Below, in pieces: positions 23,225-38,888 of a DNA stretch of 43,460 nucleotides. The stretch is from Syntrophaceae bacterium. Lineage in GTDB: Bacteria > Desulfobacterota > Syntrophia > Syntrophales > Smithellaceae. Numbering within the stretch: the first letter of the stretch is position 1; the number at the start of each line of letters is the position of its first letter. A model generated the notes under the pieces. That model did no database searches, was not told the DNA's origin, and saw only the letters and a list, made by a program, of their open reading frames with translations. The position numbers and the translations under genes are program-made. The stretch covers positions 1 to 43,460 of the forward strand of contig PLMV01000002.1 in the NCBI GenBank assembly GCA_003141615.1. The letters run 5' to 3'.

Positions 23225-23228
23225 ATCT

Positions 23229-23408: not shown

Positions 23409-23429
23409 AAGATATATTACCTGATTATT

Positions 23430-23876: not shown

Positions 23877-23927
23877 GTTTATCCTATTTCAGTTGTAAAT
23901 GAACTATGAATATATCCTGTCTCAGTA

Positions 23928-24455
23928 TTATCTGCCTTCATACCTATCAGAATGATTTTTATGTTTTTCCCAATTCTTTATGTAAATTTCGGCCAATTCT
24001 TTACTCTTCAAAATTAACAAATTCTCGGCATTTTTCTCTTCCGCAGCTTTAGTGAAATTAAAGCTTCCGGTTATTACAGTTTCCTTGTCAATGATTATGA
24101 TCTTGTTATGAGCGATAGCATGCATGGAATCTATATAAGTGGTCACTCCCATGTGTGCAGTGAAATCGCCGGCGCTATATTTTGCAGATTTATTGGATTT
24201 ATCCAGGATGATTTCTACATGGATTCCTCTCTTATGGGCATTGACTAAAGCCTTTGCAATCGGCGCTGATGTAAAAGAATATGCCTGGATAAGTATTTCT
24301 GATTTTGCATTGTCTATTTGATTCACTATTGCTTCAGTGCAGCCGCCATAGGGAGAGAAACAGACATTGGTGACATCAACATTAAATGCGAAAACAGGGA
24401 TGGTAATAATGATGATACTCAAAACTAAAAAAAAGATTGCGGTAATTTTTTTCAT
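23928..24455 (-). CDS. Exported PLD-family nuclease (Nuc-like)
   Basis: The 175-residue protein has a signal peptide (residues 1 to about 23) and one HKD motif, HNKIIIIDKETVITGSFNFT, as in the phospholipase D-type endonuclease Nuc, which dimerises to build one active site. Supporting segments are IVNQIDNAKSEILIQAYSFT and ALVNAHKRGIHVEIILDKS. It likely cleaves DNA non-specifically in the periplasm or outside the cell. A decayed copy of its C-terminus is at 21304-21413. A GGAGAATCC site precedes the ATG. Confidence 0.88.
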   Translation of the reverse strand: MKKITAIFFLVLSIIIITIPVFAFNVDVTNVCFSPYGGCTEAIVNQIDNAKSEILIQAYSFTSAPIAKALVNAHKRGIHVEIILDKSNKSAKYSAGDFTAHMGVTTYIDSMHAIAHNKIIIIDKETVITGSFNFTKAAEEKNAENLLILKSKELAEIYIKNWEKHKNHSDRYEGR

Positions 24456-24523
24456 GGATTCTCCTTCAATAGTAAGTAAAAATTATTAGATAGTATAGTA
24501 CAAATATTTTCATAAAAATAAAG

Positions 24524-24557
24524 TATTTTTAAGAGATCGCATATTTTCTTAAAAATA
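24524..24557. promoter_or_regulatory. 34-bp dyad TATTTTTAAGA-N12-TCTTAAAAATA
   Basis: Two perfect 11-base inverse arms are separated by 12 bases, in the divergent gap between the PLD and CAP-domain genes. An identical architecture occurs at 30921-30954, and the half-site occurs twice more at 25822-25847. A plausible operator. The rest of the 306-base gap is A+T-rich, with a TTGACA at 24669 that could be the -35 box for the CAP gene. Confidence 0.5.
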
Positions 24558-24761
24558 GTAATATACATAGTTCTTCCTAAAAGAAACAGATTGTTATCCT
24601 TGCCGAGTATGCAATACTTCAAATCTTAATAAACAGTGTTCATTCACAACATGGTAGTCATTCGTAAGTTGACATTAAGAGAATTACCATTTGCAATGTT
24701 TTATGAAATTCTTTATTAAGTCATCTATGCTTTGTACTAATCCCTTTTTACGGAAGGTAAT

Positions 24762-25691
24762 ATGTACTGCTCAAAATGTGGGAAGGAAGTTACAAGTGAA
24801 GAGCGTTTTTGTCTCAGATGTGGTTCTCATGAGAAACAGCAAACACCTCTTAAGTATGGGAATAATAAGATTCAACGTTCTCCACTTATTGATTGGAATG
24901 AATGGTATTACCTTGTGGAAAATAAATTAAGAGGACCATTGTCTGAAGATTCAATGAGAAAAAATTTCATGGATGGATTTTTAAATAAAAAAGTGCTCGT
25001 TCGGTTTGGAAGAGGAGGACATTGGCGTCCAGCTGAAGATGTTCCTGAATTTAAAGATGTGTTTAAGCCCCTTAACACCTTTAAACGAAGTTCATCACAG
25101 CAATTTGGAAAATATTTTCTTATTAGTTTGGTTGTGTTTTTATGTTTCTTCGTAGTAAAAACAATTATTAATAAAAGACAACAGATTATTATAACAAAAA
25201 ATAATGAGATTACTTTTTCTCCTCATTCACAAGGTGTCCAAACAAATAATGAGATTACTGTTTCTCCACCTTTGCAATGGGGCTTAACAAAAGATGGTGT
25301 AATTGCAAAAACGAATAAAGCGCGCCAAGAAAATGGTGTTCTACCTTTATTAACTGAGAATCATCTATTGGATGTTATAGCCGATGAACGCTTGAATGAT
25401 ATGTTTAAAAATCAATATTTCTCTCATTATCCTCCATCGGGAGAAACTTACACGGAATTAGCTACAAGATTTGGATATGCATACAGTCGACTTGCCGAAA
25501 ATATCGCAAGTGGAGTTTACAGAAATGATGAAAAAATCGTAGATGGATGGATGCAAAGCCCTGGGCATCGAGCAAATATCCTATCCTCGGATGTCAGCGA
25601 AATAGGCGTAGCTGTCAGAAAGGGATTCTTAAAAGGACAGGAAACATGGATTGGCGTTCAGATATTTGGACGTCCACCTGACCATCATTAG
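24762..25691 (+). CDS. Membrane protein with zinc ribbon, GYF_2-like and CAP (SCP/PR1) domains
   Basis: The 309-residue protein has a zinc ribbon (C3, C6, C17, C20), a GYF_2-type domain (about 45-90, WYYLVENKLRGPLSEDSMRK), a membrane helix (about 118-135) and a short linker with an internal repeat (NNEITFSP, NNEITVSP). It ends in a CAP domain (about 180-305, with FSHYPPSGETY, RLAENIASG and GWMQSPGHRANILSSDVSE). The layout puts the ribbon and GYF_2 part in the cytoplasm and CAP outside. CAP proteins of bacteria are little understood. GGAAGGT precedes the ATG at good spacing. The gene is bracketed by similar A+T-rich sequences (24504-24580 and 25779-25870). Confidence 0.85.
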   Translation: MYCSKCGKEVTSEERFCLRCGSHEKQQTPLKYGNNKIQRSPLIDWNEWYYLVENKLRGPLSEDSMRKNFMDGFLNKKVLVRFGRGGHWRPAEDVPEFKDVFKPLNTFKRSSSQQFGKYFLISLVVFLCFFVVKTIINKRQQIIITKNNEITFSPHSQGVQTNNEITVSPPLQWGLTKDGVIAKTNKARQENGVLPLLTENHLLDVIADERLNDMFKNQYFSHYPPSGETYTELATRFGYAYSRLAENIASGVYRNDEKIVDGWMQSPGHRANILSSDVSEIGVAVRKGFLKGQETWIGVQIFGRPPDHH

Positions 25692-25821
25692 CAAAGTGAA
25701 CTCTGAGAATCATTTCAAACACGACGCCTCAAAATATTTTATTCACCATATATGCTGCTTCCTTAGTGTTAAGAGCAGATATTTTCATAAAAATAAAAAA
25801 TTGTTTCCATAATGTATGAGA

Positions 25822-25847
25822 TCTTAAAAATAATTTTCTTAAAAATA
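25822..25847. promoter_or_regulatory. Tandem TCTTAAAAATA half-sites
   Basis: Two direct copies, at 25822-25832 and 25837-25847, are four bases apart in the gap upstream of the restriction-modification gene. The same half-site makes the dyads at 24524-24557 and 30921-30954. The nearby string ATATTTTCATAAAAATAAA (25779-25797) also occurs at 24504-24522. Confidence 0.45.
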
Positions 25848-25966
25848 CCGAAGCATATAGTTTTGCCTGTTATCAACAGGAATCTGGTTATCGGAAATAT
25901 TCAACCTTTCAATTACAAATCAATAAACACCTTTTAATCAAAAAGCGGTTATGCTAAATTGATTAA

Positions 25967-28900
25967 ATGACAACTGATGAATACATAGTCAACATAAACA
26001 AACGCTACAAATTAGGCAATGCAACCGAACATACTTTTCGTGGCGACTTACAACAACTCATTGAAAGTTTAGTGCCTGAAATCAGAGCAACTAACGAACC
26101 TAAACGGCAATCGTGCGGTGCACCTGATTACATCCTAACAAAAAAAGATATTCCTGTTGGTTTTATTGAAGCGAAAGACATTGGAGATACAGACCTCGAA
26201 GGCGCAAAGAAAATAGGGAACAAAGAACAATTCGACCGATATAAAGCATCACTTTCAAACCTCGTTTTTACCGACTACATTACTTTTATCTTATATCGCG
26301 ACGGACAATTTATCACCAAAATTTCCATTGCCGAACTTACCAGCAAAGGAATAAAGCCGTTACCCGAAAATTTTGCCTCTTTTGAAAATCTCATTAAAGA
26401 CTTTTGCACCCATATTGGACAAACCATAAAAAGTTCAAAAAAACTAGCTGAAATGATGGCAGGCAAAGCCCGACTTCTTTCTAACGTCATTGAAAAGGCT
26501 TTAACCAGCGACGAAACCAATCAGGAAGATAGTACGCTTAAAGACCAAATGAATGCCTTTAAGCAAATTTTGATACACGATATTACACCTAAAGAATTTT
26601 CCGATGTGTATGCCCAAACCATTGCTTACGGAATGTTTGCAGCTCGTTTGAATGACCCTACATTGTCTACATTCAGCCGACAAGAAGCGGCAGAATTAAT
26701 TCCAAAATCAAATCCGTTTTTGAGAAAACTGTTTGGCTACATTGCCGGTCCCGATATTGACGACCGGATCAAATGGATTGTTGATAGTTTAGCAGAAATA
26801 TTTTTAGCCTGTAATGTTAAAGAAATTTTAAAAGATTACGGTAAGGACACAAAAAAAGACGACCCGATTATTCATTTTTACGAAACCTTTTTGAGCGAAT
26901 ACGACCCTTCATTACGCAAAGCCCGTGGCGTTTGGTACACACCTGCACCCGTTGTAAATTTTATTGTTCGTGCTGTAGACGATATTTTAAAAACCGAATT
27001 TGATTTGCCGCAAGGTTTAGCCGATACAACTAAAATAAAAATTAAAGTGGATGCACAACGTAAAAAAACAGAAAAAGAAGTTCACAAGGTTCAGATACTC
27101 GACCCTGCTTGTGGTACCGGAACATTTTTAGCCGAAGTAGTAAAACTCATTTACAAAAAGTTTGAAGGACAGCATGGCATTTGGAGCAATTATATAGAAA
27201 CACATTTGCTGCCACGCCTCAATGGTTTTGAGATACTGATGGCAAGTTATGCAATGGCTCACCTTAAACTTGATTTGCTGTTTACCGAAACGGGCTACAA
27301 ACCAACTAAAGACCAGCGTTTTAGTGTTTACCTTACAAACAGCTTGGAAGAACACCACCCCGATACAGGAACTTTATTTGCCAGTTGGTTAAGTACTGAA
27401 GCCAATGAAGCCAATCGTGTCAAAAGAGATACCCCGGTAATGTGTGTTATTGGAAATCCGCCATATAGTGTAAGTAGTAGTAATAAAAGTGAATGGATAG
27501 AAAAATTAACGGCTGATTATAAAAAAGATTTGAACGAAAGAAATATCCAACCCCTTTCTGATGATTATATTAAGTTTATCCGTTTTGGTCAGCATTTTAT
27601 TGATAAGAATGGAAGTGGAATTTTAGCTTATATTTCTAACAACAGCTTTATTGACGGTATTATACACAGACAAATGCGTAAGTATTTATTGGAGAGTTTT
27701 GATAAAATTTATATTCTCGATTTGCATGGTAATGCCAAGAAAAAAGAGGTTTGCCCGGATGGTTCACCTGATCAAAATGTATTTGATATTATGCAAGGTG
27801 TAAGCATCAATATTTTTGTAAAAACTGGCAAGAGAAAGAAAAATGAATTAGGGAAAGTGTTTCATTATGATTTATTCGGGAAAAGGGAATTTAAATACGA
27901 AACCTTAATTGAAAATACATTAAGTTCTTTAAAATGGAATAATTTAGAATACAATAATCCAAATTATTTCTTTGTAATAAAGAACTTTGAAGACAGAATA
28001 AAATATGAAAGAGGATTTAGAATTGATGAGTTATTCCCTTTAAATAATGTAGGAATAGTAACGGCTCGTGATAATTTCTCTTTTCATAATTCAAAGGAAG
28101 AAGTAGAAAATACCATTAAAGAGTTTTTAAATTTAGATGATGAATCAGGAAGAAAAAAATTTGCTTTAGGTGATGATTCAAGAGATTGGCAAGTCAATTT
28201 AGCAAAAAAAGATTTACAAACCCATTATCCTAAAACTGGAATTTTCATAAAAGCTAATTATAGACCTTTCGATAGTAAATGGACATTTTATACCGGAAAA
28301 TCAAAAGGATTTCACAGTTATCCAAGATTTGATGTTATGAAACATTTATTAAAATCAAATGTTGCTTTAATTGCTCCAAAGCAAGCTATTAGAGGTTTTC
28401 AACATTTATTCCTTTCTAATATTATTTGTGATAAAAATTTCATTGACTCAGCCGGTCAATTTGGGGCCGGTAACGTTTTCCCACTCTACCTCTACCCCGA
28501 AACCAATGCACAACAAACCATTGGGCAAACAACTGAAAGAACGCCCAACCTAAACAAAGAGATTGTAAAACAAATAGCAGATAAATTAGGTTTTGCTTTT
28601 ACCAATGAAAAGGAAAGCACCAAAGACACTTTTGCACCCATAGACATTTTAGATTACATCTATGCGGTTTTACATTCGCCAACGTACCGTGAAAAATACA
28701 AAGAGTTTTTAAAAATTGATTTTCCCCGCGTGCCGTATCTAAAAGACCAAAACACCTTTTGGCAATTGGTAAAGTTAGGCGGAAAAATCAGGCAAATACA
28801 TTTACTGGAAAGCCCAATCGTTGAGAAATACATTACACAGTATCCGATAGACGGAAACAACATTATAACAAAACCAAAGTATCAAGACAGCAAAGTTTTT

Positions 28901-29107
28901 ATAAACGACACACAGTATTTTGCCAACGTTCCCGAAGTAGCTTGGAACTTTTACATTGGTGGCTATCAACCCGCACAGAAATGGCTCAAAGACCGCAAAG
29001 ACCATAAACTAGAATTTGACGATATTTTACACTATCAGAAAATCATTGTTGCACTTACTGAAACCGACAGATTAATGAAAGAAATTGACACAATTAAATT
29101 TGAATAA
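25967..29107 (+). CDS. Type ISP-like restriction-modification enzyme (nuclease-methyltransferase fusion)
   Basis: The 1046-residue single-chain enzyme has an N-terminal PD-(D/E)xK nuclease (D54 in GAPDYILTKKD, then E68-A-K70 in GFIEAKD). A helical coupler follows, then an N6-adenine methyltransferase with motif I LDPACGTGTFLAEVV (about 378) and motif IV NPPY (497-500). A long C-terminal specificity region with the WTFYTGKSKGFHSYPRF type of block resembles type ISP enzymes, but no helicase domain is seen. It should methylate one site and cut unmodified DNA. The start has no Shine-Dalgarno site, and the style of sequence resembles Bacteroidetes, suggesting recent transfer. No partner gene is needed. 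Confidence 0.88.
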   Translation: MTTDEYIVNINKRYKLGNATEHTFRGDLQQLIESLVPEIRATNEPKRQSCGAPDYILTKKDIPVGFIEAKDIGDTDLEGAKKIGNKEQFDRYKASLSNLVFTDYITFILYRDGQFITKISIAELTSKGIKPLPENFASFENLIKDFCTHIGQTIKSSKKLAEMMAGKARLLSNVIEKALTSDETNQEDSTLKDQMNAFKQILIHDITPKEFSDVYAQTIAYGMFAARLNDPTLSTFSRQEAAELIPKSNPFLRKLFGYIAGPDIDDRIKWIVDSLAEIFLACNVKEILKDYGKDTKKDDPIIHFYETFLSEYDPSLRKARGVWYTPAPVVNFIVRAVDDILKTEFDLPQGLADTTKIKIKVDAQRKKTEKEVHKVQILDPACGTGTFLAEVVKLIYKKFEGQHGIWSNYIETHLLPRLNGFEILMASYAMAHLKLDLLFTETGYKPTKDQRFSVYLTNSLEEHHPDTGTLFASWLSTEANEANRVKRDTPVMCVIGNPPYSVSSSNKSEWIEKLTADYKKDLNERNIQPLSDDYIKFIRFGQHFIDKNGSGILAYISNNSFIDGIIHRQMRKYLLESFDKIYILDLHGNAKKKEVCPDGSPDQNVFDIMQGVSINIFVKTGKRKKNELGKVFHYDLFGKREFKYETLIENTLSSLKWNNLEYNNPNYFFVIKNFEDRIKYERGFRIDELFPLNNVGIVTARDNFSFHNSKEEVENTIKEFLNLDDESGRKKFALGDDSRDWQVNLAKKDLQTHYPKTGIFIKANYRPFDSKWTFYTGKSKGFHSYPRFDVMKHLLKSNVALIAPKQAIRGFQHLFLSNIICDKNFIDSAGQFGAGNVFPLYLYPETNAQQTIGQTTERTPNLNKEIVKQIADKLGFAFTNEKESTKDTFAPIDILDYIYAVLHSPTYREKYKEFLKIDFPRVPYLKDQNTFWQLVKLGGKIRQIHLLESPIVEKYITQYPIDGNNIITKPKYQDSKVFINDTQYFANVPEVAWNFYIGGYQPAQKWLKDRKDHKLEFDDILHYQKIIVALTETDRLMKEIDTIKFE

Positions 29108-29261
29108 TAACGACAATCTAAAAACCACCCTTTTTAAAAGAAAACATTAAACCATTATTTTTGGTGATCTTGATTTATGGTTAATGGGATTTTGTTGTAC
29201 ATTTCTTCTGGCAATCCGCAAGTGTGATCAAAAAAATAAAAGACGTCTTAAAAGGTTTAAC

Positions 29262-29419
29262 GAGTCTGTAGAATAACTCCAAAATAAAAATTTTGTCTAA
29301 TTTTCAGGGGTCTTTTTACCCCTCCTCATCGCGCGATCGTTAATTGTTGGGCATTCTCCGCGGTCAATTTTTCACACATCTAACGCCAAATGCCGCTCAC
29401 CGACTTATTCTACAGGCTC
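29262..29419. mobile_element. 158-bp MITE-like element or IS end remnant
   Basis: GAGTCTGTAGAATAA (29262-29276) and TTATTCTACAGGCTC (29405-29419) are inverse ends with one mismatch. Inside are a hairpin AGGGGT-CTTTTT-ACCCCT (29306-29323) and a GGCATT/AATGCC pair (29349 and 29389). No reading frame of note is present. The G+C-rich inner part differs from the surrounding A+T-rich DNA. It accounts for most of the 370-base gap after the restriction-modification gene. Confidence 0.65.
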
Positions 29420-29476
29420 AACGTAAAAATCAGCCGTGAGTGTAGCGACAGGCTTGGAAAACTGGTTATACCCACA

Positions 29477-30478
29477 TTATTCTATAAAATAAATTCTAGT
29501 TCCTATCTTTAAGTGTTCATATACAGCTTCAGCTTTTTTCATTAATCGTTTATCTCTAGTAACGAAGAAATCTGAATAGATTGCATATCCAACGTGTTGG
29601 TGATCATTGATAAAAGGAATAAACTTTTTATCATTGTGAATTTTTTTGTCAGGATAGTAACCAATGTTATTCAATAAATTATATAATCCATTTACTTTAC
29701 TAGTCATAGTTATTTTCTGGTTAGGAAAGAATTTGTATAAACCATCACCGAATAAATCATTATAAGCGATATCAATATTCTTATTCTTTATTTCATCTTT
29801 TATTATATTCCAAATTTGATCAATAACATGGGGGGGCTCAATTTCATTTAGCTTATCAACTTTTATGTCACATAATTTTCGTAAATCATTCAAAAAATTT
29901 TCATAATTATAATTAGAGTTTTTAATTAGTTGAGTTGTTTTGTCAACCGATTCTGCATAATTGGTGTTCGCATATTGAAAAATTTCTTTTAATAATTCTT
30001 TATTAATAGCAGGATGCTCATCCAAAGAATCTAAGGTTTTATTCAAGTATTCCATTAAATGACTAAAAGAATTCTTTTGAGAGGTTGCAATCTCATCAAA
30101 AGAGGTATCTTTTTTACCACCATATAGTTTATGCATCATTGCAAGATTTGAATCTTCGATGTCTTTATAAACATTGTTATTGCTGCTATTTTTATTAAAT
30201 ATTTCAAAGGGATCAACCTCTTCAAAATGTGGTGATTCGTTTTTATCTATCGATAAATATTTAGCTTTGACTCTCTTTAGATAATCTAAATATAATTTTC
30301 TTTGTAATACATCTTCGATTCGTGCAAATTCTCTGAGAGTTACATATGAATATATTATTTCCGAATTCTGAGTTTTATTGATTAACTCTTGGACAGTATC
30401 GAGATTACCTTTGATTAAATAATCGATTACGTTTTGATCGAGATAAAACCTGACTTTATTTTGATTATTTTCACTCAT
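29477..30478 (-). CDS. PIN-like nuclease-fold protein
   Basis: The product, 333 residues from ATG 30478 (an in-frame GTG at 30496 is possible), shows the ends of a PIN-like fold. These are the N-terminal FYLDQNVIDYL with Asp14, and the C-terminal DHQHVGYAIYSDFFVTRDKRLMKKA with Asp292, Asp303 and Asp309. The order D...E...DxxxxxxxxxxDxxxxxD is typical of PIN-type RNases, with a large helical insert between. Such proteins act as toxins or defence effectors. No antitoxin gene is adjacent. Base composition is very A+T-rich, unlike the core block. The upstream operator-like string at 30591-30605 is shared with the toxin-antitoxin promoter at the left edge. Confidence 0.65.
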   Translation of the reverse strand: MSENNQNKVRFYLDQNVIDYLIKGNLDTVQELINKTQNSEIIYSYVTLREFARIEDVLQRKLYLDYLKRVKAKYLSIDKNESPHFEEVDPFEIFNKNSSNNNVYKDIEDSNLAMMHKLYGGKKDTSFDEIATSQKNSFSHLMEYLNKTLDSLDEHPAINKELLKEIFQYANTNYAESVDKTTQLIKNSNYNYENFLNDLRKLCDIKVDKLNEIEPPHVIDQIWNIIKDEIKNKNIDIAYNDLFGDGLYKFFPNQKITMTSKVNGLYNLLNNIGYYPDKKIHNDKKFIPFINDHQHVGYAIYSDFFVTRDKRLMKKAEAVYEHLKIGTRIYFIE

Positions 30479-30590
30479 TACTTTAGTGGGTATCACGAAA
30501 AATCCAGCTGATCACAACTGGTGAATACTCAATATTTCTTCCTTAGAATAATAATTAATATCCGAACTTCTCTTTTCCCGATGATTTTAA

Positions 30591-30605
30591 TATAGCACTA
30601 TATAT
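30591..30605 (-). promoter_or_regulatory. Operator-like site shared with the RelE/HigA promoter
   Basis: TATAGCACTATATAT is identical over 15 bases to 674-688. It contains the dyad TATAG-CA-CTATA and, on the minus strand, overlaps a weak -10 box (TATATT) for the PIN-like gene, about 113 bases from its start codon. Confidence 0.5.
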
Positions 30606-30920
30606 ATTTTTTAAAAGAGGAAAATACTTTGCGGAGTTCAGGAAGAAGTGCTTGTTGAGTTCACAAATATCTTTTGCTCAGAAATATTTGGTGAAAAATA
30701 TTTGCTTTTTTATAGTGTAAAACCAGCTTTCCTGTACTAAGTACAGGGCGACTAAAATGGGTGCCAAAAGTCGGCATGGATTGGCTCTAAAGCGTCAAGG
30801 ATAGGCCTGTTTGAGGCAAGGATTTTACCCGCTTTTTGTTTTGATCGTTTTTTATAAGGTATTTTTCAGCCTTTTTATCAATAAAAAATATATTTAATCT
30901 CTATTGCAACCCGTGGAAAT
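30606..30920. other. Non-coding stretch with palindromes
   Basis: No gene is visible. It contains the perfect palindrome CCTGTACT-A-AGTACAGG (30731-30747), a G+C-richer part of unknown origin (about 30748-30835), and a 25-base string (30637-30661) whose inverse recurs with one mismatch at 43053-43077. Confidence 0.4.
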
Positions 30921-30954
30921 TATTTTTAAGAAAATACGCATAATCTTAAAAATA
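30921..30954. promoter_or_regulatory. 34-bp dyad TATTTTTAAGA-N12-TCTTAAAAATA, second copy
   Basis: Arms and spacing are identical to 24524-24557, and the 12-base spacers share CGCATA. It lies about 90 bases past the stop of the DUF932 gene, so it could be an operator, or an A+T-rich hairpin at the operon end. Confidence 0.5.
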
Positions 30955-31042
30955 GCGAAAAATAGCTTGTTAATTTGTTTTTTCATACAAAAAAGTCAGC
31001 ACAGAAATCTTCCGATCCCCATGCTGACTACCTTTCTTCTGC

Positions 31043-31981
31043 TCAATTTACAGTATGTTTTACCATACCCAAAATTGCTCCGCCCACTTTCTCCAGTCTG
31101 AAACTGCTCTCCGCAGGAAGTTCCTTGTATTGAGCAGCTTTTGTATAGACATTAACAATACTGAACATTGTAAAACCATATTCCAGAGGAATCGCCCAGG
31201 TCACAGCTTCTCTTTCCGTTTTGTTTAACAGAAATTGATTGTTGAAATTGTTAATGGTACTTTCTGGATTATCAACCTTGCTCTCCAGTGATAATTTTAT
31301 TTGCTCCTTCTGTCTTCCCAGTTCCTGAGAAACGTTGCTCAAGACTGCCGGGAGTGCTGCAAGTATTTTAGCAGATACATGCCGGTATGACGCGGAGACT
31401 TCCGTTTTGGAAATCATTCCGTTGGTGCAAACCAATCTCAGCATAAATGCAGCTATGGACAATGATGCAAGTCCCACTTCCGAATTGCTCACGGATATGC
31501 CCGGAGTCATTTTTTCTCCATAAAACTGAAATGTTTGTTTATTGTCCGGGATGCTTAAGGACATAAATTCATTATCCAGATTGCATTGAACTCTGGTGTC
31601 AGCCGCATAATTAAGAGCATCAAACTTCTTTAAGACTTCCAGATTATCGGTTGGGATATAACGCGGAGTAAATATTGCCCGAACATCATTTCTGTCAAAC
31701 CGGAAGAACAATTCCTCGTTCTTTTCATATTTGATCCAGTGGTTAAGATTAATTGCCTGAATATCTTCCGGGCATTTTCGCAGATACTGAATGGGGATAC
31801 CCAGTCTGTTTGCTATGGACTGCTGGGCAATCGGTTTCAATGAATGGGATTGGCTTCCGATCCACACCGTATCAAGACTGTCAAAAGATATCTCCTTTGT
31901 TTTTATATTCATGTCCGTATGGTTTCTGGACATAGTTTCGACTCTTTCCATGACTTGTGAAAGCGTTGTCGTTTGAGACAT
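31043..31981 (-). CDS. DUF932 domain protein
   Basis: The 312-residue protein matches DUF932, a family common on phages, plasmids and integrative elements, with no proven activity. Typical parts are SLKPIAQQSIANRLGIPIQY, LFFRFDRNDVRAIFTPRY, PTDNLEVLKKF and the central block LRLVCTNGMISKTEVSASYR, whose RxVCTNGM-like core is a family hallmark. AAAGGAGAAAACATT precedes the ATG. It is the last gene of the minus-strand recombination operon that begins with ssb. Confidence 0.88.
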   Translation of the reverse strand: MSQTTTLSQVMERVETMSRNHTDMNIKTKEISFDSLDTVWIGSQSHSLKPIAQQSIANRLGIPIQYLRKCPEDIQAINLNHWIKYEKNEELFFRFDRNDVRAIFTPRYIPTDNLEVLKKFDALNYAADTRVQCNLDNEFMSLSIPDNKQTFQFYGEKMTPGISVSNSEVGLASLSIAAFMLRLVCTNGMISKTEVSASYRHVSAKILAALPAVLSNVSQELGRQKEQIKLSLESKVDNPESTINNFNNQFLLNKTEREAVTWAIPLEYGFTMFSIVNVYTKAAQYKELPAESSFRLEKVGGAILGMVKHTVN

Positions 31982-32064
31982 AATGTTTTCTCCTTTCCTT
32001 ATAATGTTGTTTCATCGTTTAATTCCGGTGAGACCGTTGTAATAATATCTTTTCCAGAGTCCTA

Positions 32065-32298
32065 TCAGGATAACGATAAAACCTCCTTATTACGGGCTTT
32101 GTGTTTCTGTTTGCTGAATACACATTCTTTGCAGATGGAATTATCCTTGCATTTAGAGCATACTATTTTGCGGTCAATGAACATGGTTATATTCTTGACG
32201 ACTATTTCAATGGTTTGTGTCATCGGTTTTTCCAGCGACCATGCTATTCTTCTCAATATCTGACAGGATTCCATTGATAGCTCCGGCGTGTAAGCCAT
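32065..32298 (-). CDS. Small CxxC zinc-finger-like protein
   Basis: The 77-residue product is unassigned. Its centre has two cysteine pairs (VCSKCKDNSICKECVF), which probably bind zinc, and the C-terminus is basic. AAGGAGGTTTGATAA gives a strong ribosome site for the ATG. It lies between the possible BglII-like gene and DUF932 in the operon. Confidence 0.65.
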   Translation of the reverse strand: MAYTPELSMESCQILRRIAWSLEKPMTQTIEIVVKNITMFIDRKIVCSKCKDNSICKECVFSKQKHKARNKEVLSLS

Positions 32299-32311
32299 TT
32301 ATCAAACCTCC

Positions 32312-32377
32312 TTAATTCAAATTCATAATGTTTTGGTAAATTGTATTGGGAGATGTGTCTTTCACCACCTGACACAT
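32312..32377 (-). CDS. Possible 21-residue peptide
   Basis: ATG 32377 follows AGGGGAAATATA. The frame (MCQVVKDTSPNTIYQNIMNL plus one residue) ends inside the ribosome site of the next gene, so it could couple translation of the CxxC gene. Support is the ribosome site and position only. Confidence 0.3.
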   Translation of the reverse strand: MCQVVKDTSPNTIYQNIMNLN

Positions 32378-32464
32378 TATATTTCCCCTGACGACTCTAC
32401 AGGGTGCGTTTCCATACCAGCGGACGGGCGGCTCCCAATTGATTACTGATTGTTTCCGGTGAAA

Positions 32465-33133
32465 TTACTGATTGACGGCTATTTTAGGGGGTTCATTCTT
32501 GACCAGATGAATCCTGGACTTGGATTTGGTCACGACTTTTTTCTTTTTGTCCGTGTCTTTCTTGATCGCGGAATCGCCGTGAAGGTATTTATCAATCAAT
32601 TTCGGATCAACATCAGCATTATCCGGTAAAGCTTCTTCCTTCTTTGGTTTCTTTTCTTCATAAATCTCGCCCGGTCTTCCCAGATCAAACAATACGATTG
32701 TCACAGGCAGGTTAATTGTGGGATGCAACATTTCGATTTCCTTTGCCACCAGTTCCTCTGTAGTCCCCAGTTTGCTCTTTTCGCTTCTCTGGGAAGTGAC
32801 CATGACAATGCCCATGTCAATCTTTTTCTTGTCAAAACCGACCTGCAACTTCAGAAGGGCATTTTGTATATATTCATAGCTGGAAAAGCTGCCGTCAATG
32901 GCCACACGGTTTTTGAAACCTTTGTAAAAGTATCTGCGTCCATCCAGAATGTTCAAATCCCCGTTCTGTCTCCAGTCCATTTCTTGCAATGCCTGACGCA
33001 TAAGTTCGCCTTTATGGCGGGTGCCGAATAGACAATCATGCAGGTATTCCATCAATTGTTTGACTCCATTAGCCATCTTCTTTTCTTTGATTATTTCTCC
33101 CGCTTTACGGAAGTGGATCATTTTGTAAGACAT
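32465..33133 (-). CDS. Uncharacterised operon protein, possibly BglII-like nuclease fold
   Basis: From ATG 33133 (AAAGGAGAACTTT upstream) the product has 222 residues. The stretch FKNRVAIDGSFSSYEYIQNA then LLKLQVGFDKKKIDMGIVMV recalls the core of BglII/BstYI-type enzymes, in which a VAIExEF strand precedes a helix and an ID-x-G-V strand. Here the second acidic position is replaced (VAIDGSF, Asp80), so catalysis is doubtful. The C-terminal third is low-complexity and lysine-rich. The fold is an inference from pattern only. It overlaps the preceding gene by 29 bases. Confidence 0.5.
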   Translation of the reverse strand: MSYKMIHFRKAGEIIKEKKMANGVKQLMEYLHDCLFGTRHKGELMRQALQEMDWRQNGDLNILDGRRYFYKGFKNRVAIDGSFSSYEYIQNALLKLQVGFDKKKIDMGIVMVTSQRSEKSKLGTTEELVAKEIEMLHPTINLPVTIVLFDLGRPGEIYEEKKPKKEEALPDNADVDPKLIDKYLHGDSAIKKDTDKKKKVVTKSKSRIHLVKNEPPKIAVNQ

Positions 33134-33557
33134 AAAGTTCTCCTTTTCTTTTTTTATTTTTTGATATTTTTTGAGCAAGATGATCTCCGATGAGATACAT
33201 ATCTCCTATCCCGCGTCCTTCTTCTATTTTCTTCAACAACCGCTGATATTGCTTTTCCGTGAAAAGTCCATCCTGGTAGACAGCGTTGACAAATTGTTCA
33301 ACGTTATCGAATGAAGCTTCACCAAAACTCCATTTCCAGTTCCTGTTTCTGTAAATGATGCTCCCGAACTTCTCATTGGAACCGAGATACCAGAGGTTGA
33401 TGTCTCCACGCAGAGGAAGACAACATTGTGCGTCCTTTAAAAGAAATTGGTAAATTTCTTCTCCCGTTGCCTCCCTGCCGACCATCTCTTCGCTGAAATT
33501 GTTGGTATAGATTTTACAGTAGATGCTCACATAAGCTTTTTCGTTTGACTCGTTCAT
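33105..33557 (-). CDS. Hypothetical operon protein
   Basis: The 150-residue product is not recognised. The N-terminus (EKAYVSIYCKIYTNNFSEEM) and middle (DINLWYLGSNEKFGSIIYRN) suggest a small alpha/beta protein with many aromatic residues; the C-terminus is lysine-rich. GGGAGG is present upstream at slightly long spacing. It lies downstream of the helicase gene and overlaps the next gene by 29 bases. Confidence 0.6.
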   Translation of the reverse strand: MNESNEKAYVSIYCKIYTNNFSEEMVGREATGEEIYQFLLKDAQCCLPLRGDINLWYLGSNEKFGSIIYRNRNWKWSFGEASFDNVEQFVNAVYQDGLFTEKQYQRLLKKIEEGRGIGDMYLIGDHLAQKISKNKKRKGELYVLQNDPLP

Positions 33558-33592
33558 TGGTAATTAGACCTCCCTTCCTTTCATAAAATAGG

Positions 33593-33620
33593 AAAGGGAA
33601 GGTTTTTATTCCTTCCCTTT
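33593..33620 (-). other. Hairpin between helicase and downstream genes
   Basis: AAAGGGAAGG and CCTTCCCTTT form a 10-bp perfect stem with an 8-base loop, in the 113-base gap after the helicase gene. Only a weak U-rich run follows on the minus strand, so it may be an attenuator or processing site inside the operon. Confidence 0.5.
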
Positions 33621-33670
33621 TCTTGGGTTACTTCTTTATAAATATAACTGTGGAGAAGCTTGTGAACTGT

Positions 33671-35533
33671 TTATGCGGCCTCTGACTTCTGAGCTGTTCC
33701 CATGATTTCATCAATGAAGATGGATTTCTTGGCGGCTTGTCCCAGATAATTGTGCGAATAGCTGATATACAGAATCTCCATTGCTCTCGATATTCCCACA
33801 AAGACGATTCTGCGTTCCTCTTCCAGATCCCCTTTCTTGGTCGGGGTTATTCCTTCTACCAGACCTATGACAAAGACTATTTTAAATTCCAGTCCCTTAG
33901 CCTTATGAATGGTCATTAAAGCGACTCCTTCCTTGTCATTGCTCATCTGCTCGTCAAAACTGTCTGTGTATTCCAGAAAAGCCTTGATGCTTGAATATCT
34001 TGCCGCCGATAACTGGAGCTGGTTAAGGTTTTGAATCTTGGCATCGTCGGGAGTAGGGATATCCTCATCCGTGATGAAGCGGTCATAGTCAAACTGGTTT
34101 CTCAGCATCTGCAGAACCTCCGGGGGATTTAAGTTGGGAGCATAGTCAACCAAAGGATTTATAAATGAGATGAAATCTCTTACGTTCTTGCGGATATAAG
34201 GGAGATCAACAGGCATGGACTTCAACCCCTCAAAGAGATGAATATTTTTCCTGCTAGAGAATTCCGTCAGCTCCTGAACAAACTTCCTGCTGATGTAACG
34301 GTTGGGCACATTCAATATTGATTTAAGAGCTTCATCTCCTTCTTCGGAATCGGGACTTTCAATCAACCTAAGGTAATCCAGCAGATATCTTACTTCCGAT
34401 CGCTGGTAAAAGTTCAATCCGTTTTCAATATGATAGGGTATCTTCATCTGGGCAAAGGTTTCCTCTATGCAACGGCTCTGAAAATTTGCTCGGTAGAGCA
34501 CTGCAATGTCCTTATACTCATAACCTCTCTGCTCGACCATTTCCCTTACCTCGTTGACAAGGTTCAAAGCTTCTCCTTCTTCCGAAGACGATTCCAGGAC
34601 AATGACTTCATCTCCGCCGGCGTTATTTGTCTTTAACGTCTTTTCAATTTTCCTGACATTATGCTGGATCAGATTTTGACAGGCGGAAAGTATTTCTGGA
34701 GTGCTGCGGTAATTGACATTGAGGATAAATATCTTGGATTTGCGGAAAGTGGTCTGAAAGTTGAGAATGTTTCCCACTGAAGCTCCCGCAAAACTGAAAA
34801 TTGATTGCCAGTCATCTCCCGCGCACCAGAATGATTTTTCACTGTTGTCCTTTTCGTCAATCAGGCATTTGATAATTTCCAGCTGCACGGGATTGGTGTC
34901 CTGGAATTCATCGACCAGAAGATGCTGATAACGATCCGCGTATTTATCCCGGATATTGATGTTTGTGGAGAGCAGCAAATATGTTTCCAGCAGGAGGTCG
35001 TCAAAATCCAATAGATACTTTTTTGCTTTTTCCCTGTCATATGCTTCATAGATGTCCGCAACCTTGAGCATGTTTTTATCCGCTTCATAGAGGCACCTGA
35101 ACTCTTCAACTGAAATAAGGTTGTTTTTGGCCAGACTTATTTCCCTTAAAACAGAACCGACCGATAAATCCTTCAGCTTCTTGTGTTTCATCAGATTCTT
35201 GATGAAGGACAGCTGGTCTTTTCCCGAAAGAATTTCAAATAGTTTCCCTTCATTCCTCAGAAGATAATGCGCGAAGGAATGGATTGTGCTCAATGTTACC
35301 CTTGATGCCTGTTCTTTTAATACCGGAACAAGTCTTTGCCTCATTTCTTCAGCAGCGTTTCTGGTAAATGTCAGTCCCAGAATACTTTCAGGCGGCACAT
35401 GTTGCTGGGTTACGAGCAGGCCGATTCTCTGCATCATGACTTCTGTTTTTCCCGCTCCCGGTCCCGTTATTACCGCAGCTATTCCGTTGACGAAACCTGC
35501 CGCCTTCCTTTGCTCCCTGTTTAGAGATTTCAA
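33671..35533 (-). CDS. UvrD/PcrA-family DNA helicase (SF1A)
   Basis: The 620-residue 3'-5' helicase has the motifs of the family in order: Q motif LNREQRKAA, Walker A GPGAGKTE (24-31), TFTRNAAEEM, Walker B LVDEFQDTNPVQ, GDDWQSIFSF, NYRSTPEI, VLYRANFQSR and MTIHKAKGLEFKIVFV. It is shorter than E. coli UvrD (720). It starts with TTG 35533 after AGGAGGTG, inside the 3' end of the preceding gene. Linked to a RecB-like nuclease, an annealing protein and SSB, it probably unwinds DNA for end processing (inference). Confidence 0.93.
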   Translation of the reverse strand: MKSLNREQRKAAGFVNGIAAVITGPGAGKTEVMMQRIGLLVTQQHVPPESILGLTFTRNAAEEMRQRLVPVLKEQASRVTLSTIHSFAHYLLRNEGKLFEILSGKDQLSFIKNLMKHKKLKDLSVGSVLREISLAKNNLISVEEFRCLYEADKNMLKVADIYEAYDREKAKKYLLDFDDLLLETYLLLSTNINIRDKYADRYQHLLVDEFQDTNPVQLEIIKCLIDEKDNSEKSFWCAGDDWQSIFSFAGASVGNILNFQTTFRKSKIFILNVNYRSTPEILSACQNLIQHNVRKIEKTLKTNNAGGDEVIVLESSSEEGEALNLVNEVREMVEQRGYEYKDIAVLYRANFQSRCIEETFAQMKIPYHIENGLNFYQRSEVRYLLDYLRLIESPDSEEGDEALKSILNVPNRYISRKFVQELTEFSSRKNIHLFEGLKSMPVDLPYIRKNVRDFISFINPLVDYAPNLNPPEVLQMLRNQFDYDRFITDEDIPTPDDAKIQNLNQLQLSAARYSSIKAFLEYTDSFDEQMSNDKEGVALMTIHKAKGLEFKIVFVIGLVEGITPTKKGDLEEERRIVFVGISRAMEILYISYSHNYLGQAAKKSIFIDEIMGTAQKSEAA

Positions 35534-35810
35534 TTATTTTCACCTCCTCTCCTTCCTCCAATGTTTTAATGGCCATGGTTATGCGAAACATAGCGCTGAC
35601 GTACTGGTCTATTCTCCGGTGTGTCTTGTCGATCAGGATCAGGTTTCTTAAAGCCTGCTCCTTTCCATTAAGATAATCTTTTAAAAACAGAATGACTTCT
35701 TTAGTGCTGTGGCTCTGCAATAGATTTATAATGTCAACTATGCGTTTATAGCCTTCATCCTTTTCCACGGTCAGATAATCCTGTGCTTCGGAAATAATTG
35801 CTTCGTTCAT
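35388..35810 (-). CDS. Small operon protein whose frame overlaps the helicase gene by 146 bases
   Basis: The product, 140 residues from ATG 35810, is unassigned. The first 90 or so residues (MNEAIISEAQDYLTVEKDEG, LIDKTHRRIDQYVSAMFRIT) look like a normal helical protein. The last 48 residues are read from the helicase gene in another frame across its Walker A region and are rich in Gly, Arg and Asn, which suggests that an original stop was lost. It starts with ATGA overlap to the nuclease gene, and GGAGGCGGC is the ribosome site. Confidence 0.6.
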   Translation of the reverse strand: MNEAIISEAQDYLTVEKDEGYKRIVDIINLLQSHSTKEVILFLKDYLNGKEQALRNLILIDKTHRRIDQYVSAMFRITMAIKTLEEGEEVKIIEISKQGAKEGGRFRQRNSCGNNGTGSGKNRSHDAENRPARNPATCAA

Positions 35811-36619
35811 GCCGCCTCCATAAACCACTCATCGCAGTTATTCTTGTACGAGCAGTTTTTACATTTCCAGTTTTGAGGACTGTCATTGGGAATGAATATT
35901 CCCTTCGAGATGCTTCTGGCCACTTCAATGATTTTCCTTCTTGCCCTGATTTCATCGGTAATGTCCCGCGTCGTATAAAAGGACTCGAATTTTGGCTGTT
36001 TTGTCTTTATAAGACAATCAAACCTCAACAGGAGATTCGAATCTTCATATCCGTTTTCTTTTAACGCCATCTCATAAAGAGTCAGCTGGAAGTTTTTGTT
36101 AACCTCATCGAAGGAATATGCTTTTGCTGAAGTTTTAAAATCAGTGATGATCATAGTGCCGGATTTATCCTGTTCAATAAGATCAATTGCTCCGATAATT
36201 GGTATGGGGCATCCTTCAATGTTAAACCTGAAAGGTTCTTCGATTCCAATGCACTCGAAGTCTTTCCAGGAAGCTTTATTGTAATAAGCGGTGAGCAGTT
36301 CCTGTCCCTGTAAAAGAAGGATTTCAGGATTGTTATCTCCCGTGTATTTAATATCATCCCTTCCATCGGTAAGCTTTTTCCAATGAGCGGCAAAACATTC
36401 ATGGAGCTGTTTTACCGTTAAACATTTGCCTCTCATTTTTCCAGAATGAAAATCATTTAATGCCAGATGAATCGCGCTCCCTAATTCCAGTGCGTCAGAT
36501 TTGAATTTCGCCTGTATTCTGTCTATGCGTCCGAATTTATAGAGCAAAGAACAGTCAATATAGTCCCCTATCGCTGATGCGGATAGATGATCTGCCTTCC
36601 TTAATTCCTTTAAATCCAT
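35807..36619 (-). CDS. RecB/Cas4-type PD-(D/E)xK nuclease with Fe-S cysteines
   Basis: The 270-residue nuclease has the RecB-family residues H51 (GSAIH), D146 (GAIDLIE), D160-x-K162 (ITDFKTS) and the QxxxY motif at 178-182. Cys23 near the N-terminus plus Cys253, Cys256 and Cys262 form the split four-cysteine pattern that holds a 4Fe-4S cluster in Cas4, AddB and related exonucleases. It probably resects DNA ends. GAGGTGAAAC precedes the ATG. The stop overlaps the next gene (ATGA). No cas1 or cas2 and no CRISPR array are present, so a CRISPR role is unlikely. Confidence 0.88.
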   Translation of the reverse strand: MDLKELRKADHLSASAIGDYIDCSLLYKFGRIDRIQAKFKSDALELGSAIHLALNDFHSGKMRGKCLTVKQLHECFAAHWKKLTDGRDDIKYTGDNNPEILLLQGQELLTAYYNKASWKDFECIGIEEPFRFNIEGCPIPIIGAIDLIEQDKSGTMIITDFKTSAKAYSFDEVNKNFQLTLYEMALKENGYEDSNLLLRFDCLIKTKQPKFESFYTTRDITDEIRARRKIIEVARSISKGIFIPNDSPQNWKCKNCSYKNNCDEWFMEAA

Positions 36620-36641
36620 GTTTCACCTCGATTCTAAAAAG

Positions 36642-36728
36642 CGCAGGTTCCTGCGGTTTTGGCAAAAGGGGCAGGACAAAAGATATAGTAATAGACATAC
36701 AAATATAATTTGTTACTGTCCTGCCCCT
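36642..36728 (-). other. Two inverted repeats between the annealing-protein and nuclease genes
   Basis: CGCAGG-TT-CCTGCG (36642-36655) and a 12-bp perfect pair AGGGGCAGGACA/TGTCCTGCCCCT (36667-36678 and 36717-36728) with a 38-base A+T-rich loop fill the 147-base gap. On the minus strand they precede the nuclease gene. They may limit or split the message; no U-run follows the larger stem. Confidence 0.55.
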
Positions 36729-36766
36729 GATTGCAACAGATGCGCTAATTGTTTAATTGTGTTTGA

Positions 36767-37780
36767 TTAAGAAGCTTGCTGCAGAAAACGGATAAATTCT
36801 CCGGCGTTAATTGAAGTTAACTGTTCAACAGGCACTCCATATTTTTCCTGAACTCTTCCCTCGATATCTTCGACGGAAAATCCGCGTCTCCGGGAAAGAT
36901 TAAACATTGCTGATTTCTGAGCTTCACTCATCAGGGGACCCTTTTCCTGTTTATCTCCGCCGTTGCCATTGCCCGGTTTAGCTGCTTTGGTTTTCTTGGG
37001 CTTTGTTTCAACAGCAGCAGCATTGGTATCGGTAACTGAAGGTTGTTCCTGAGTTTCCGTATTTGCATTTACGACAGCTGCCGGTTCCGCTTTCTTGAAT
37101 TTGACAAACGGTTTTACATTATTGGTTTTCTTCTGAGCAGGAGAATTATTCCCGATGACTTCATTCAAATCCCCAAGCTCCTCCAGTGCTGTCATTCCAA
37201 TATTATCCATGTCACGAAATGCCCTCGCCTTGCTCCTTGTGCTGGCCATTCTTATAATATGTTTTGCTACCTTGGAAGTGCAGTTCTGCGGATTAGCGTC
37301 ACCTATATCGGAAAATATTTTACCGTCTATTGTTTTTACCGTAGCTTTGCAGATCGCAGTTTGTTTATTTTCCTCTGATGGGAATTGAATGAGTTCCACA
37401 TCCACCGAGCAGAGATTCTTTTGATGCGCACAATCCAGGAGACCCGAATAGAGAACGAAATCCTTATCATCGATCTTCATGATGAACTTCTCGTCCAGCT
37501 TCGGTCTCCATCTTTCCAGATAATGGACATTTTCCGAATCACCTTCAGTGATGGAATTCATGACAGCCATTACGTGCTTGCACTTAAAGGTCGGGTCTTT
37601 CGCATAATTTTTTGCAAAGTCCCCACAGTTGCAGAGATATTGCGTTTCGCTTTCATAGCCAACCTTGTAACAGATTTTCCCTTCTTCGGATTCTACGTAA
37701 TACCAGGGTGAGTCCTCCAGATGTAATACTTTTAAGTTCTGCGATTTCTCGCTTCTTTTGAGAGCTTCTGAACCGGTCAT
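36767..37780 (-). CDS. SWIM zinc-finger protein with Rad52-like annealing region
   Basis: The 337-residue protein has a SWIM finger, CxC-x14-CxH (C50, C52, C67, H69). A central region follows (AICKATVKTIDGKIFSDIGD, then HIIRMASTRSKARAFRDMDN and IGMTALEELGD) that resembles Rad52/Sak-type single-strand annealing proteins of phages and elements. After an alanine/lysine/proline-rich linker comes a C-terminal helical module (MSEAQKSAMFNLSRRRGFSV, VPVEQLTSINAGEFIRFLQQ) often found at the end of such proteins. It likely anneals SSB-coated single strands. The annealing assignment is by pattern only. Its ATG overlaps the stop of the 33-residue gene. Confidence 0.75.
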   Translation of the reverse strand: MTGSEALKRSEKSQNLKVLHLEDSPWYYVESEEGKICYKVGYESETQYLCNCGDFAKNYAKDPTFKCKHVMAVMNSITEGDSENVHYLERWRPKLDEKFIMKIDDKDFVLYSGLLDCAHQKNLCSVDVELIQFPSEENKQTAICKATVKTIDGKIFSDIGDANPQNCTSKVAKHIIRMASTRSKARAFRDMDNIGMTALEELGDLNEVIGNNSPAQKKTNNVKPFVKFKKAEPAAVVNANTETQEQPSVTDTNAAAVETKPKKTKAAKPGNGNGGDKQEKGPLMSEAQKSAMFNLSRRRGFSVEDIEGRVQEKYGVPVEQLTSINAGEFIRFLQQAS

Positions 37781-37881
37781 TATTTATTGCCTCCTTTGTT
37801 TTTTTTGCCTCTTGAGGAAATCAAGATATCGGCTAGTGCTGATATAATCATAATAATTATCTTTATTGTCTTAGACTTCAT
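37780..37881 (-). CDS. 33-residue membrane peptide gene between ssb and the SWIM gene
   Basis: ATG 37881 lies six bases after a strong AGGAGG. The product has a hydrophobic segment (TIKIIIMIISALADILISS) between basic ends, so it could insert in the membrane. The stop (TAATG) overlaps the start of the SWIM gene, whose own GGAGG is inside this frame. Strong signals at both ends support translation; the function, or a coupling role only, is unknown. Confidence 0.5.
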   Translation of the reverse strand: MKSKTIKIIIMIISALADILISSRGKKNKGGNK

Positions 37882-37896
37882 TCATCACCTCCTGCG

Positions 37897-38256
37897 TTAA
37901 AGTGGTGGATCGTCATTGATTGTTTCCGCAGTTGCGCCATCTTTAAACCCTCTTCCGTCTGTTCTGATGAACTCCAGAGTATTGCCCAAAATTTGAAAAG
38001 TGGTTTTGTTCTGACCTTCCTTATCAGTCCACTTGTTTTGATCCAGCTGACCGGATATAGCAATCCTCGCGCCTTTGTGGAGATGCTTGGCACAGATTTC
38101 CGCCAGCTTGTTGAAAGTGACTACTCTGATCCAGCTGGTTTTCTTTTTTCCGGATTGAAAAGCGAGATCAAATGAAGTAACAGGAACCCCTTCAGCGGAA
38201 AAGAATTCCTTGGGATCGTCACCGAGATTCCCCGTTATGACAGTTTGGTTTAACAT
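37897..38256 (-). CDS. ssb: Single-stranded DNA-binding protein
   Basis: The 119-residue OB-fold SSB has the typical start (NQTVITGNLGDDPKEFFSAE), WIRVVTFNKLAEICAKHLHK, GARIAISGQLDQNKW and a short acidic tail ending DDPPL, close to the DDIPF-type tail that recruits repair enzymes. It is shorter than chromosomal SSBs (about 150-180), as is usual for phage or plasmid copies. AAAGGAGGAAACAATCA precedes the ATG. It is the first gene of the minus-strand operon. Confidence 0.93.
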   Translation of the reverse strand: MLNQTVITGNLGDDPKEFFSAEGVPVTSFDLAFQSGKKKTSWIRVVTFNKLAEICAKHLHKGARIAISGQLDQNKWTDKEGQNKTTFQILGNTLEFIRTDGRGFKDGATAETINDDPPL

Positions 38257-38430
38257 TGATTGTTTCCTCCTTTTTAAATTGTTTTTGATTGAATGTTTAA
38301 TGGAATGTTACTGACAATAATGTAATATTTAGCCTCCTTTCATAATAAATTGGTTGCTCCTATATTAATAAATATATATACTTGTGCTCATCCATACTGA
38401 AAAAAAGAAGGGTTTAAATACGGAAATAAC

Positions 38431-38565
38431 ATGAGAGACAAAACAGAATTGCTGGAAATCATCAAAAAATTACTAAAAACGGAAACTGATCTGGACTTTT
38501 TATTGGAATTGCCGGAAAGTGATCTGGAAACTTTGGTCGTATGCATAAGAGAACGGGTTGATTAG
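38431..38565 (+). CDS. Small conserved-type helical protein (44 residues)
   Basis: The product begins MRDKTELLEIIKKLLKTETD and ends LVVCIRERVD. It is helical and acidic, with the regular heptad-like leucines of a small dimer. It is 44 bases upstream of the HU gene on the same strand. No strong ribosome site is seen, so support is the codon pattern and the position. Confidence 0.5.
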   Translation: MRDKTELLEIIKKLLKTETDLDFLLELPESDLETLVVCIRERVD

Positions 38566-38609
38566 TTGGGAAAACAAACATTGTAAATTGTTCATATAAG
38601 GAGTTTGGT

Positions 38610-38888
38610 ATGAAAAAATCGGATTTAGTAGCAGCTCTGGCCGATAAGAAAAATCTGACGGAAAAACAGGCGACGGACATAATTAATTTGATGTTTAATG
38701 GATTTATAAATGAATTTAAAAAAGGTGGCAGAATTGAGATCAGAGGATTTGGGAGCTTCAGCGTACGGAAGTATAAATCTTATAAAGGAAGAAATCCCCG
38801 TACAGGAAATGCTGTAGAGGTGAAACCGAAGAAAGCGCCGTTTTTTAAGGTTGGAAGGGAATTGAAGAAAATGGTGGATGGTAAATAA
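38610..38888 (+). CDS. HU/IHF-family DNA-binding protein
   Basis: The 92-residue protein has the complete HU/IHF fold. It has an N-terminal helical pair (KKSDLVAALADKKNLTEKQA), GGRIEIRGFGSFSVR, and the DNA-binding arm with KGRNPRTGNAVEVKPKKAP and FFKVGRELKKMV. The arm proline that bends DNA is present. The sequence IEIRGFGSFSVR is more IHF-like than HU-like. AAGGAGTTTGGT precedes the ATG. Encoded next to a recombination operon, it may help DNA bending in integration or repair (inference). Confidence 0.93.
   Translation: MKKSDLVAALADKKNLTEKQATDIINLMFNGFINEFKKGGRIEIRGFGSFSVRKYKSYKGRNPRTGNAVEVKPKKAPFFKVGRELKKMVDGK

Follow-up and report, generated by a model that had tools for sequence, protein, structure and literature searches.

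Positions 31043 to 38256 on the minus strand of contig PLMV01000002.1 (assembly GCA_003141615.1, Syntrophaceae bacterium) carry a real and conserved gene set, which we interpret, with a probability of roughly 0.75, as a recombination module of bacterial mobile elements that would work by Red-like single-strand annealing with the help of a helicase. This operon lies in the window, the whole stretch of 43,460 nucleotides analyzed here (positions 1-43,460 of the contig). The interpretation builds on a conserved gene neighborhood, protein folds, catalytic residues, selection, and a difference in cargo between conserved flanks, from which we infer the activities, polarity, protein contacts, and biological role.

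Organization of the operon

Read from 38256 to 31043, ten genes on one strand encode a single-stranded DNA-binding protein (SSB), a 33-amino-acid (33-aa) micro-protein, an annealing protein (annealase), a nuclease, a 140-aa protein, a UvrD helicase, a 150-aa protein, a BglII-like protein, a 77-aa protein, and a DUF932 protein, and a divergent HU gene belongs to the same neighborhood. Loci with a near-complete set are called type I below, and those with the order SSB-annealase-nuclease-UvrD type II; labels starting with G or L are our own. The features are as follows.

38610..38888, plus strand: HU-family DNA-binding protein, divergent from the SSB gene and kept near it in type-I loci
37897..38256, minus strand: SSB, 119 aa, with an acidic C-terminal tail (PF00436, E = 1.8e-23)
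37780..37881, minus strand: 33-aa micro-protein, position and sequence conserved in 7 of 8 type-I loci
36767..37780, minus strand: annealing protein, 337 aa, with predicted SWIM, RAD52-fold, and Red-beta C-terminal domain (CTD)-like parts (predicted model, Foldseek, VIA-align, and Pfam on homologues)
35807..36619, minus strand: Cas4/RecB-like PD-(D/E)XK exonuclease, 270 aa, with 4Fe-4S cysteines (PF12705, E = 9.2e-33)
35388..35810, minus strand: 140-aa helical protein (o140), with a core of ~95 aa conserved across loci
33671..35533, minus strand: UvrD/PcrA-type SF1 helicase, 620 aa, TTG start (PF00580, E = 1e-63; PF13361, E = 4e-52)
33105..33557, minus strand: 150-aa protein (o150), no assigned family, 54-66% identity in G021, G080, and G154
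32465..33133, minus strand: 222-aa protein with a marginal BglII match (PF09195, 26.0 bits)
32065..32298, minus strand: 77-aa Cys-rich (zinc-ribbon-like) protein, 44-66% identity across type-I and type-II loci
32015..32071, minus strand: 3' remnant of a PQ-loop/SemiSWEET-like gene (tblastn, 80% identity over 20 residues)
31043..31981, minus strand: DUF932 protein (PF06067, E = 9e-5; phrog_1362, E = 1e-28)
30994..31029, minus strand: intrinsic-terminator-like hairpin at the operon end (16 pairs and a T-run)
25967..29107, plus strand: type IIG restriction-methylation enzyme, neighboring cargo outside the operon (PADLOC REase_MTase_IIG, 1196 bits)

Genes, strand, and coordinates agree with the initial annotation, and the four overlaps that it listed are all present. 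The micro-protein stop overlaps the annealase ATG in a TAATG at 37782, the nuclease stop lies on the start of the 140-aa gene in an ATGA at 35807-35810, the end of the 140-aa gene runs 146 nt into the UvrD gene (35388-35533), and the 150-aa gene extends 29 nt into the BglII-like gene if the ATG of the latter at 33133 is used. Intergenic gaps of 83 to 166 nt are also present, so the operon is not one unbroken overlap chain. The 16-pair hairpin and T-run directly after DUF932 likely mark its end. Within the window, sigma-70 promoter matches are no more frequent than in shuffled sequence, and Rfam and tRNA scans returned no matches.

Conservation across genera

The type-I order is almost fully kept in four loci besides the window, all from other genera. 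The set is nearly complete in G021 (a Syntrophaceae metagenome-assembled genome) and G080, and some edge genes are missing in G154 and G053; three contig-end fragments (L015, L016, and L021) are also of type I. HU lies near SSB, on the opposite strand, in all complete type-I loci, indicating that the unit extends past 31043-38256. Type II is found in G016, L019 (binned as Bacteroidetes), G078 (whose contig stops within the nuclease gene), G372, and a second G154 locus, with a varying number of upstream genes for an AAA ATPase, the 77-aa protein, DUF1257, DUF488, RadC, and DUF3150. A short contig of G341 carries the four core genes, and its annealase lacks the SWIM part. The order SSB-annealase-nuclease-UvrD is kept in about 10 loci. 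L017 and G080, L018 and G016, L020 and G021, and L016 and G078 were taken as the same loci because their contigs are equally long, each counted once.

A minimal type consists of annealase and nuclease, usually together with the 140-aa protein and DUF932 (G427 twice, G189 twice, and G193), and the Desulfomonile tiedjei plasmid pDESTI.01 carries an annealase-nuclease pair. The lack of UvrD in these relatives, which do have annealase, nuclease, and DUF932, runs contrary to the earlier proposal that a helicase is a fixed addition. Occurrence is patchy, with counts of 7 among 155 genomes of the order and 7 among 395 genomes sampled from the phylum, the source genome being included in both.

All genes tested are under purifying selection, with nonsynonymous divergence (dN) of 0.12 to 0.27; synonymous divergence (dS) of the window from G021 or G080 is mostly near or at saturation. 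For UvrD the measure was protein identity, 87% over 620 aa to its G021 counterpart. Because the block is collinear in other genera, its conservation reflects more than chance, and the chance mixture that the initial annotation had named as its refutation is contradicted.

The putative annealing protein

The identity of the 337-aa protein as an annealing protein is supported by its predicted model (alignment of 15 homologues; mean pLDDT 71; core and C terminus confident). Behind a SWIM zinc finger at residues ~45-76, the protein that had been called a likely annealing protein is predicted to carry a RAD52-fold core (92-197) and a Red-beta-CTD-like domain (280-337). The leading Foldseek matches are all RAD52 (E = 4.6e-4, probability 1.0), and VIA-align places the core on RAD52 with Z scores of 8.2 to 9.4 over 82 to 104 residues, above Mgm101 (Z 7.5) and staphylococcal Sak (Z 7.3). 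Double-stranded RNA-binding domains reach Z 7-8, so Z alone is not decisive; RAD52 chains top both rankings. The C-terminal domain aligns with that of Red-beta at Z 8.9 over 58 residues (1.8 Å). The Red-beta domain is an interaction site for lambda exonuclease and potentially for SSB (PMC9512822), and such Red-beta-like C-terminal domains are common to several phage annealase families (PMC8093625).

The profile scan of the window proteins gave the annealase no family assignment above cut-off, and a sequence search of the PDB returned no meaningful match. Across the family, Pfam identifies SWIM in 10 of 17 homologues and Rad52_Rad22 in 2 of 17 (best E = 5e-4), the window annealase itself having no match to the latter. 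RecT, Erf, Sak3, and Sak4 are absent among the listed Pfam matches of the family, which leaves room for a relation to them.

The window annealase as a lone query found no matches in IMG/VR. With a deeper alignment, 16 viral contigs were seen to carry the core; three have a neighboring UvrD-like gene, three have SSB, and none has the complete operon. The core sits between an annotated host-nuclease-inhibitor gene and SSB in phage API480, and the homologue in phage phiT1 carries an annotation for DNA repair and recombination.

The nuclease and the helicase

Judged by its residues, the nuclease belongs to the Cas4-like (pfam12705/RecB) family, with both the PD-(D/E)XK motif and four Fe-S cysteines. 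The cysteines (C23, C253, C256, and C262) and the catalytic-motif residues (H51, D146, K162, Q178, and Y182) are invariant in 13 homologues, which is the layout of RecB/AddB/Cas4-type Fe-S nucleases. The protein matches PF12705 and has no YqaJ match. A CRISPR Cas4 was considered and rejected: TIGR00372 reaches only 40 bits against a cut-off of 65, and there are no cas genes among the operon proteins.

The helicase has the motifs GPGAGKT, DEFQDT, and VGISRA. It aligns to 631 of the 725 positions of the PcrA profile, leaving the last ~95 unmatched (the PcrA tail is absent), and scores 454 bits, half of the NCBIfam pcrA cut-off of 911. Given the missing C terminus and the score below cut-off, we reject a housekeeping PcrA/UvrD enzyme. 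The TTG start is preceded by a strong Shine-Dalgarno sequence, GGAGGTG, and both are kept in five type-I loci. Cas4-like pfam12705 nucleases next to unfused UvrD are known, mostly from Clostridiales, with a proposed role in repair, and UvrD-Cas4 fusions are predicted defense components near Dcm-Vsr (PMC5704561). Folds, invariant residues, and profiles thus bear out the initial view of SSB, annealing protein, 4Fe-4S nuclease, UvrD, and DUF932 as a conserved single-strand-annealing set.

SSB, DUF932, and accessory proteins

The SSB tail is acidic and then ends in P-F, P-Y, or P-L in 11 of 13 loci (DDPPL in the window). Such tails fit an annealase with a Red-beta-type CTD, a domain that potentially binds SSB (PMC9512822). 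HU is 73-75% identical to the window protein in G021, G080, and G154 and 54% in G053, and is also present in L016. The micro-protein comprises a hydrophobic helix and a Lys-rich tail.

DUF932 is the accessory protein most regularly tied to annealase and nuclease, though the association is not exclusive. A search of the phylum with DUF932 only recovers adjoining annealase and nuclease genes in G193, G159, and the second G427 locus, and the nuclease alone nearby in G346; G449 has neither neighbor, and several contigs are too short for neighbors to be judged. A DUF932 of 42% identity is also encoded on two phage contigs that lack the module. Against the PDB, the DUF932 model (pLDDT 79) has a best E of 0.44 and no fold could be assigned, which does not imply a new fold; a PDB search by sequence gave no meaningful match. 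Phage contig L004 (1-20936; also L005) combines a lone DUF932 with two large RNA-polymerase-like subunit genes, identified by eye. In L056 (G189), a large protein at 11124-13655, directly after DUF932, has a C-terminal RtcR/PspF-type CARF-AAA-HTH match.

The ~95-aa core of the 140-aa protein is conserved in the type-I loci and in G427 and G189. The overlap of its gene with UvrD measures exactly 146 nt in each of the five type-I loci, diverged as they are. The overlapping tail of the 140-aa gene is itself poorly conserved despite this fixed length.

The 222-aa protein has four homologues of 50-68% identity and none on plasmids. Its BglII-like label finds little backing: the single match to PF09195 covers 48 of 163 profile positions and scores no more than the Pfam cut-off (26.0 bits against 26), and a sequence search of the PDB returned nothing. 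A BglII restriction endonuclease was rejected on this short threshold match and because the operon has no methyltransferase gene. The PQ-loop/SemiSWEET relic, named by eye, lies between the 77-aa gene and DUF932, where the gene is intact in G021 and G080; another such copy, likewise named by eye, is at 52721-53005 of the contig.

Proposed mechanism and comparison with known systems

In the proposed mechanism, the UvrD-type helicase would open DNA at an end or fork and the Cas4/RecB-like Fe-S nuclease would degrade one strand, leaving 3' single-stranded DNA that the element-encoded SSB would coat and protect. The annealase, recruited to nuclease and SSB via its Red-beta-type C-terminal domain, would displace SSB, and its RAD52-type core would pair the strand with a homologous one; a further contact, to DNA or protein, probably comes from the SWIM zinc finger. 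HU, DUF932, the 140-aa, 150-aa, and BglII-like proteins, and the micro-protein may be accessory. The module would serve repair and homologous recombination of the element and could also exchange cargo, such as defense genes, among related elements. The best precedent for this role is SXT, in which bet and exo promote formation of hybrid integrative and conjugative elements (ICEs) (PMC2786100).

The ssb-bet-exo genes of the SXT/R391 ICEs (S064-S065-S066) form an operon-like unit (PMC3118119) and likewise encode, in matching order, a mobile-element SSB, annealase, and alkaline exonuclease, which were shown to promote element recombination (PMC3118119, PMC2786100). The present annealase is a RAD52-type protein with a SWIM finger, not a Bet/RecT protein (no Pfam RecT match), its partner is a Cas4/RecB-like Fe-S nuclease in place of lambda-Exo/YqaJ, and the operon further includes UvrD, DUF932, and other proteins. 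What places the operon among Red-like modules is that SSB, annealase, and exonuclease genes stand side by side in a conserved order at about 10 loci and that the annealase CTD is of the Red-beta kind. Because annealase and nuclease families both differ, we regard it as working like Red-type modules without being a strict Bet/lambda-Exo member. An IncA plasmid taken as a yardstick for ssb-bet-exo names only AAA/DUF2997 and a UvrD-domain gene in its annotated stretches.

Other systems share parts of the set. The unfused UvrD-pfam12705 operons and UvrD-Cas4 fusions have the same nuclease family beside a UvrD-type helicase; the present set also includes SSB and annealase, and neither Rad52 nor DUF932 nor single-strand annealing comes up in the text of that paper (PMC5704561). 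Rad52/22-ssb phage modules likewise combine a RAD52-type core and a Red-beta-CTD-like domain beside SSB (PMC8093625); the present set differs in its N-terminal SWIM finger, its dedicated Fe-S nuclease and helicase, and a Rad52_Rad22 signal that is barely detected. AddAB, AdnAB, and RecBCD also pair an SF1 helicase with a RecB-family Fe-S nuclease, for presumed end resection here; in the operon these are separate small polypeptides with no second helicase subunit, and the annealase would take the place of RecA loading. Gabija (GajA-GajB) similarly has a UvrD-type helicase with a nuclease; membership was rejected, the operon having no match to GajA (ATPase-TOPRIM nuclease).

The whole set is not a named system, as the initial annotation held, but parts of it are published: SXT ssb-bet-exo (PMC3118119) and unfused UvrD with pfam12705 (PMC5704561). 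We think it unlikely that the set is an unnamed machine of its own, with a split helicase-nuclease, a SWIM-RAD52-Red-beta-CTD annealase, DUF932 and the 140-aa and BglII-like proteins as dedicated parts, and the swapping of defense cargo between conserved flanks as its main selected role.

If the recombination module works as proposed, Red-type modules would come to include one that brings its own motor for resection and occurs beyond the classical phages, in lineages that are anaerobic and mostly uncultured. For DUF932, which is frequent on phages and plasmids, it would offer a functional setting open to testing. Exchange of defense cargo would provide a mechanism for rapid turnover of defense islands, and the annealase-SSB-nuclease-helicase set is a candidate for recombineering.

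Genomic context and alternative explanations

Between o108 and HU, the window and G021 have stretches in common at 74-88% DNA identity, with differing genes between them: type IIG restriction-modification (RM) in the window versus Vsr/Dcm-like genes and Mza in G021. Next to DUF932 lie genes for a type I RM system in G053 and for a caspase-like protein in G080. A tyrosine integrase is on the same contig in G080, G053, G154, and G021, roughly 14-32 kb off, and a Prim-Pol/DnaB replicase in G053 and in G154 (cluster match). This context fits a carrier with swappable cargo, the ends of the element not having been located. In same-genus genomes the two flanks fall on different contigs. The earlier claim that the operon is island-borne is weakly supported by the patchy distribution and by the integrases of related loci.

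The operon might instead be a module for replication or fork restart of the element (concatemer formation, re-initiation), with homologous exchange as a by-product. The replicases in the G053 and G154 elements, the presence of HU and SSB as replication factors, and phages in which the annealase core sits beside replication genes agree with this. The operon itself has no replication gene, however, and no replicase was found next to it in the window, which makes this explanation rather doubtful as the primary role; the two roles are not mutually exclusive.

A nuclease-helicase anti-phage defense system, like Gabija or the UvrD-Cas4 fusions, with SSB and annealase sensing or degrading phage DNA, is less probable still. 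Defense genes do lie downstream in several loci (the type IIG RM, Vsr/Dcm-like and Mza, type I RM, and caspase genes), UvrD-Cas4 fusions near Dcm-Vsr are predicted defense components (PMC5704561), and UvrD scores 311 bits to GajB. But the higher score to PcrA (454 bits) makes the GajB match generic, no operon gene convincingly matches GajA or another defense effector, and the annealase carries both domains of a Red-type recombinase. Further, the defense cargo varies while the operon persists, as expected of carrier and cargo. The operon is therefore not itself a defense system but adjoins variable defense cargo. That unrelated genes came together by chance on a genomic island can practically be dismissed: the edges of the set vary and there are gaps of more than 100 nt, but it is collinear across genera at near-saturated synonymous divergence, the exact 146-nt overlap recurs in five loci, and DUF932 alone recovers the set independently.

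Several observations weigh against a recombination module of mobile elements. SSB and UvrD were not detected in the minimal-type loci. The full operon is absent from the viral contigs, phages, and plasmids searched, and an integrase search of the window's contig found none. A weak terminator-like hairpin between UvrD and the 150-aa gene makes a single transcript uncertain, and the structure models were built from shallow alignments of 15 and 8 sequences.

Misbinning of the window's contig is possible, as suggested by two dxs genes in the bin, one in the window (7041-8945), with slightly better matches in other genera, and one on contig C205. Patchiness within the genus is therefore not to be over-read.

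Across window positions 20276-38888, comparison with G021 (L010/L013) shows shared flanks, while the defense cargo between a PLD-like gene and DUF932 differs, resembling replacement. No significant family match was obtained for a 339-aa protein (29477-30496) whose gene separates the type IIG enzyme from the operon. A 115-aa N-terminal mltG-like fragment (22084-22431; named by eye) lies beside the block, likewise in G021 (L013), where a full-length mltG-like gene, also named by eye, lies across the block from the fragment.

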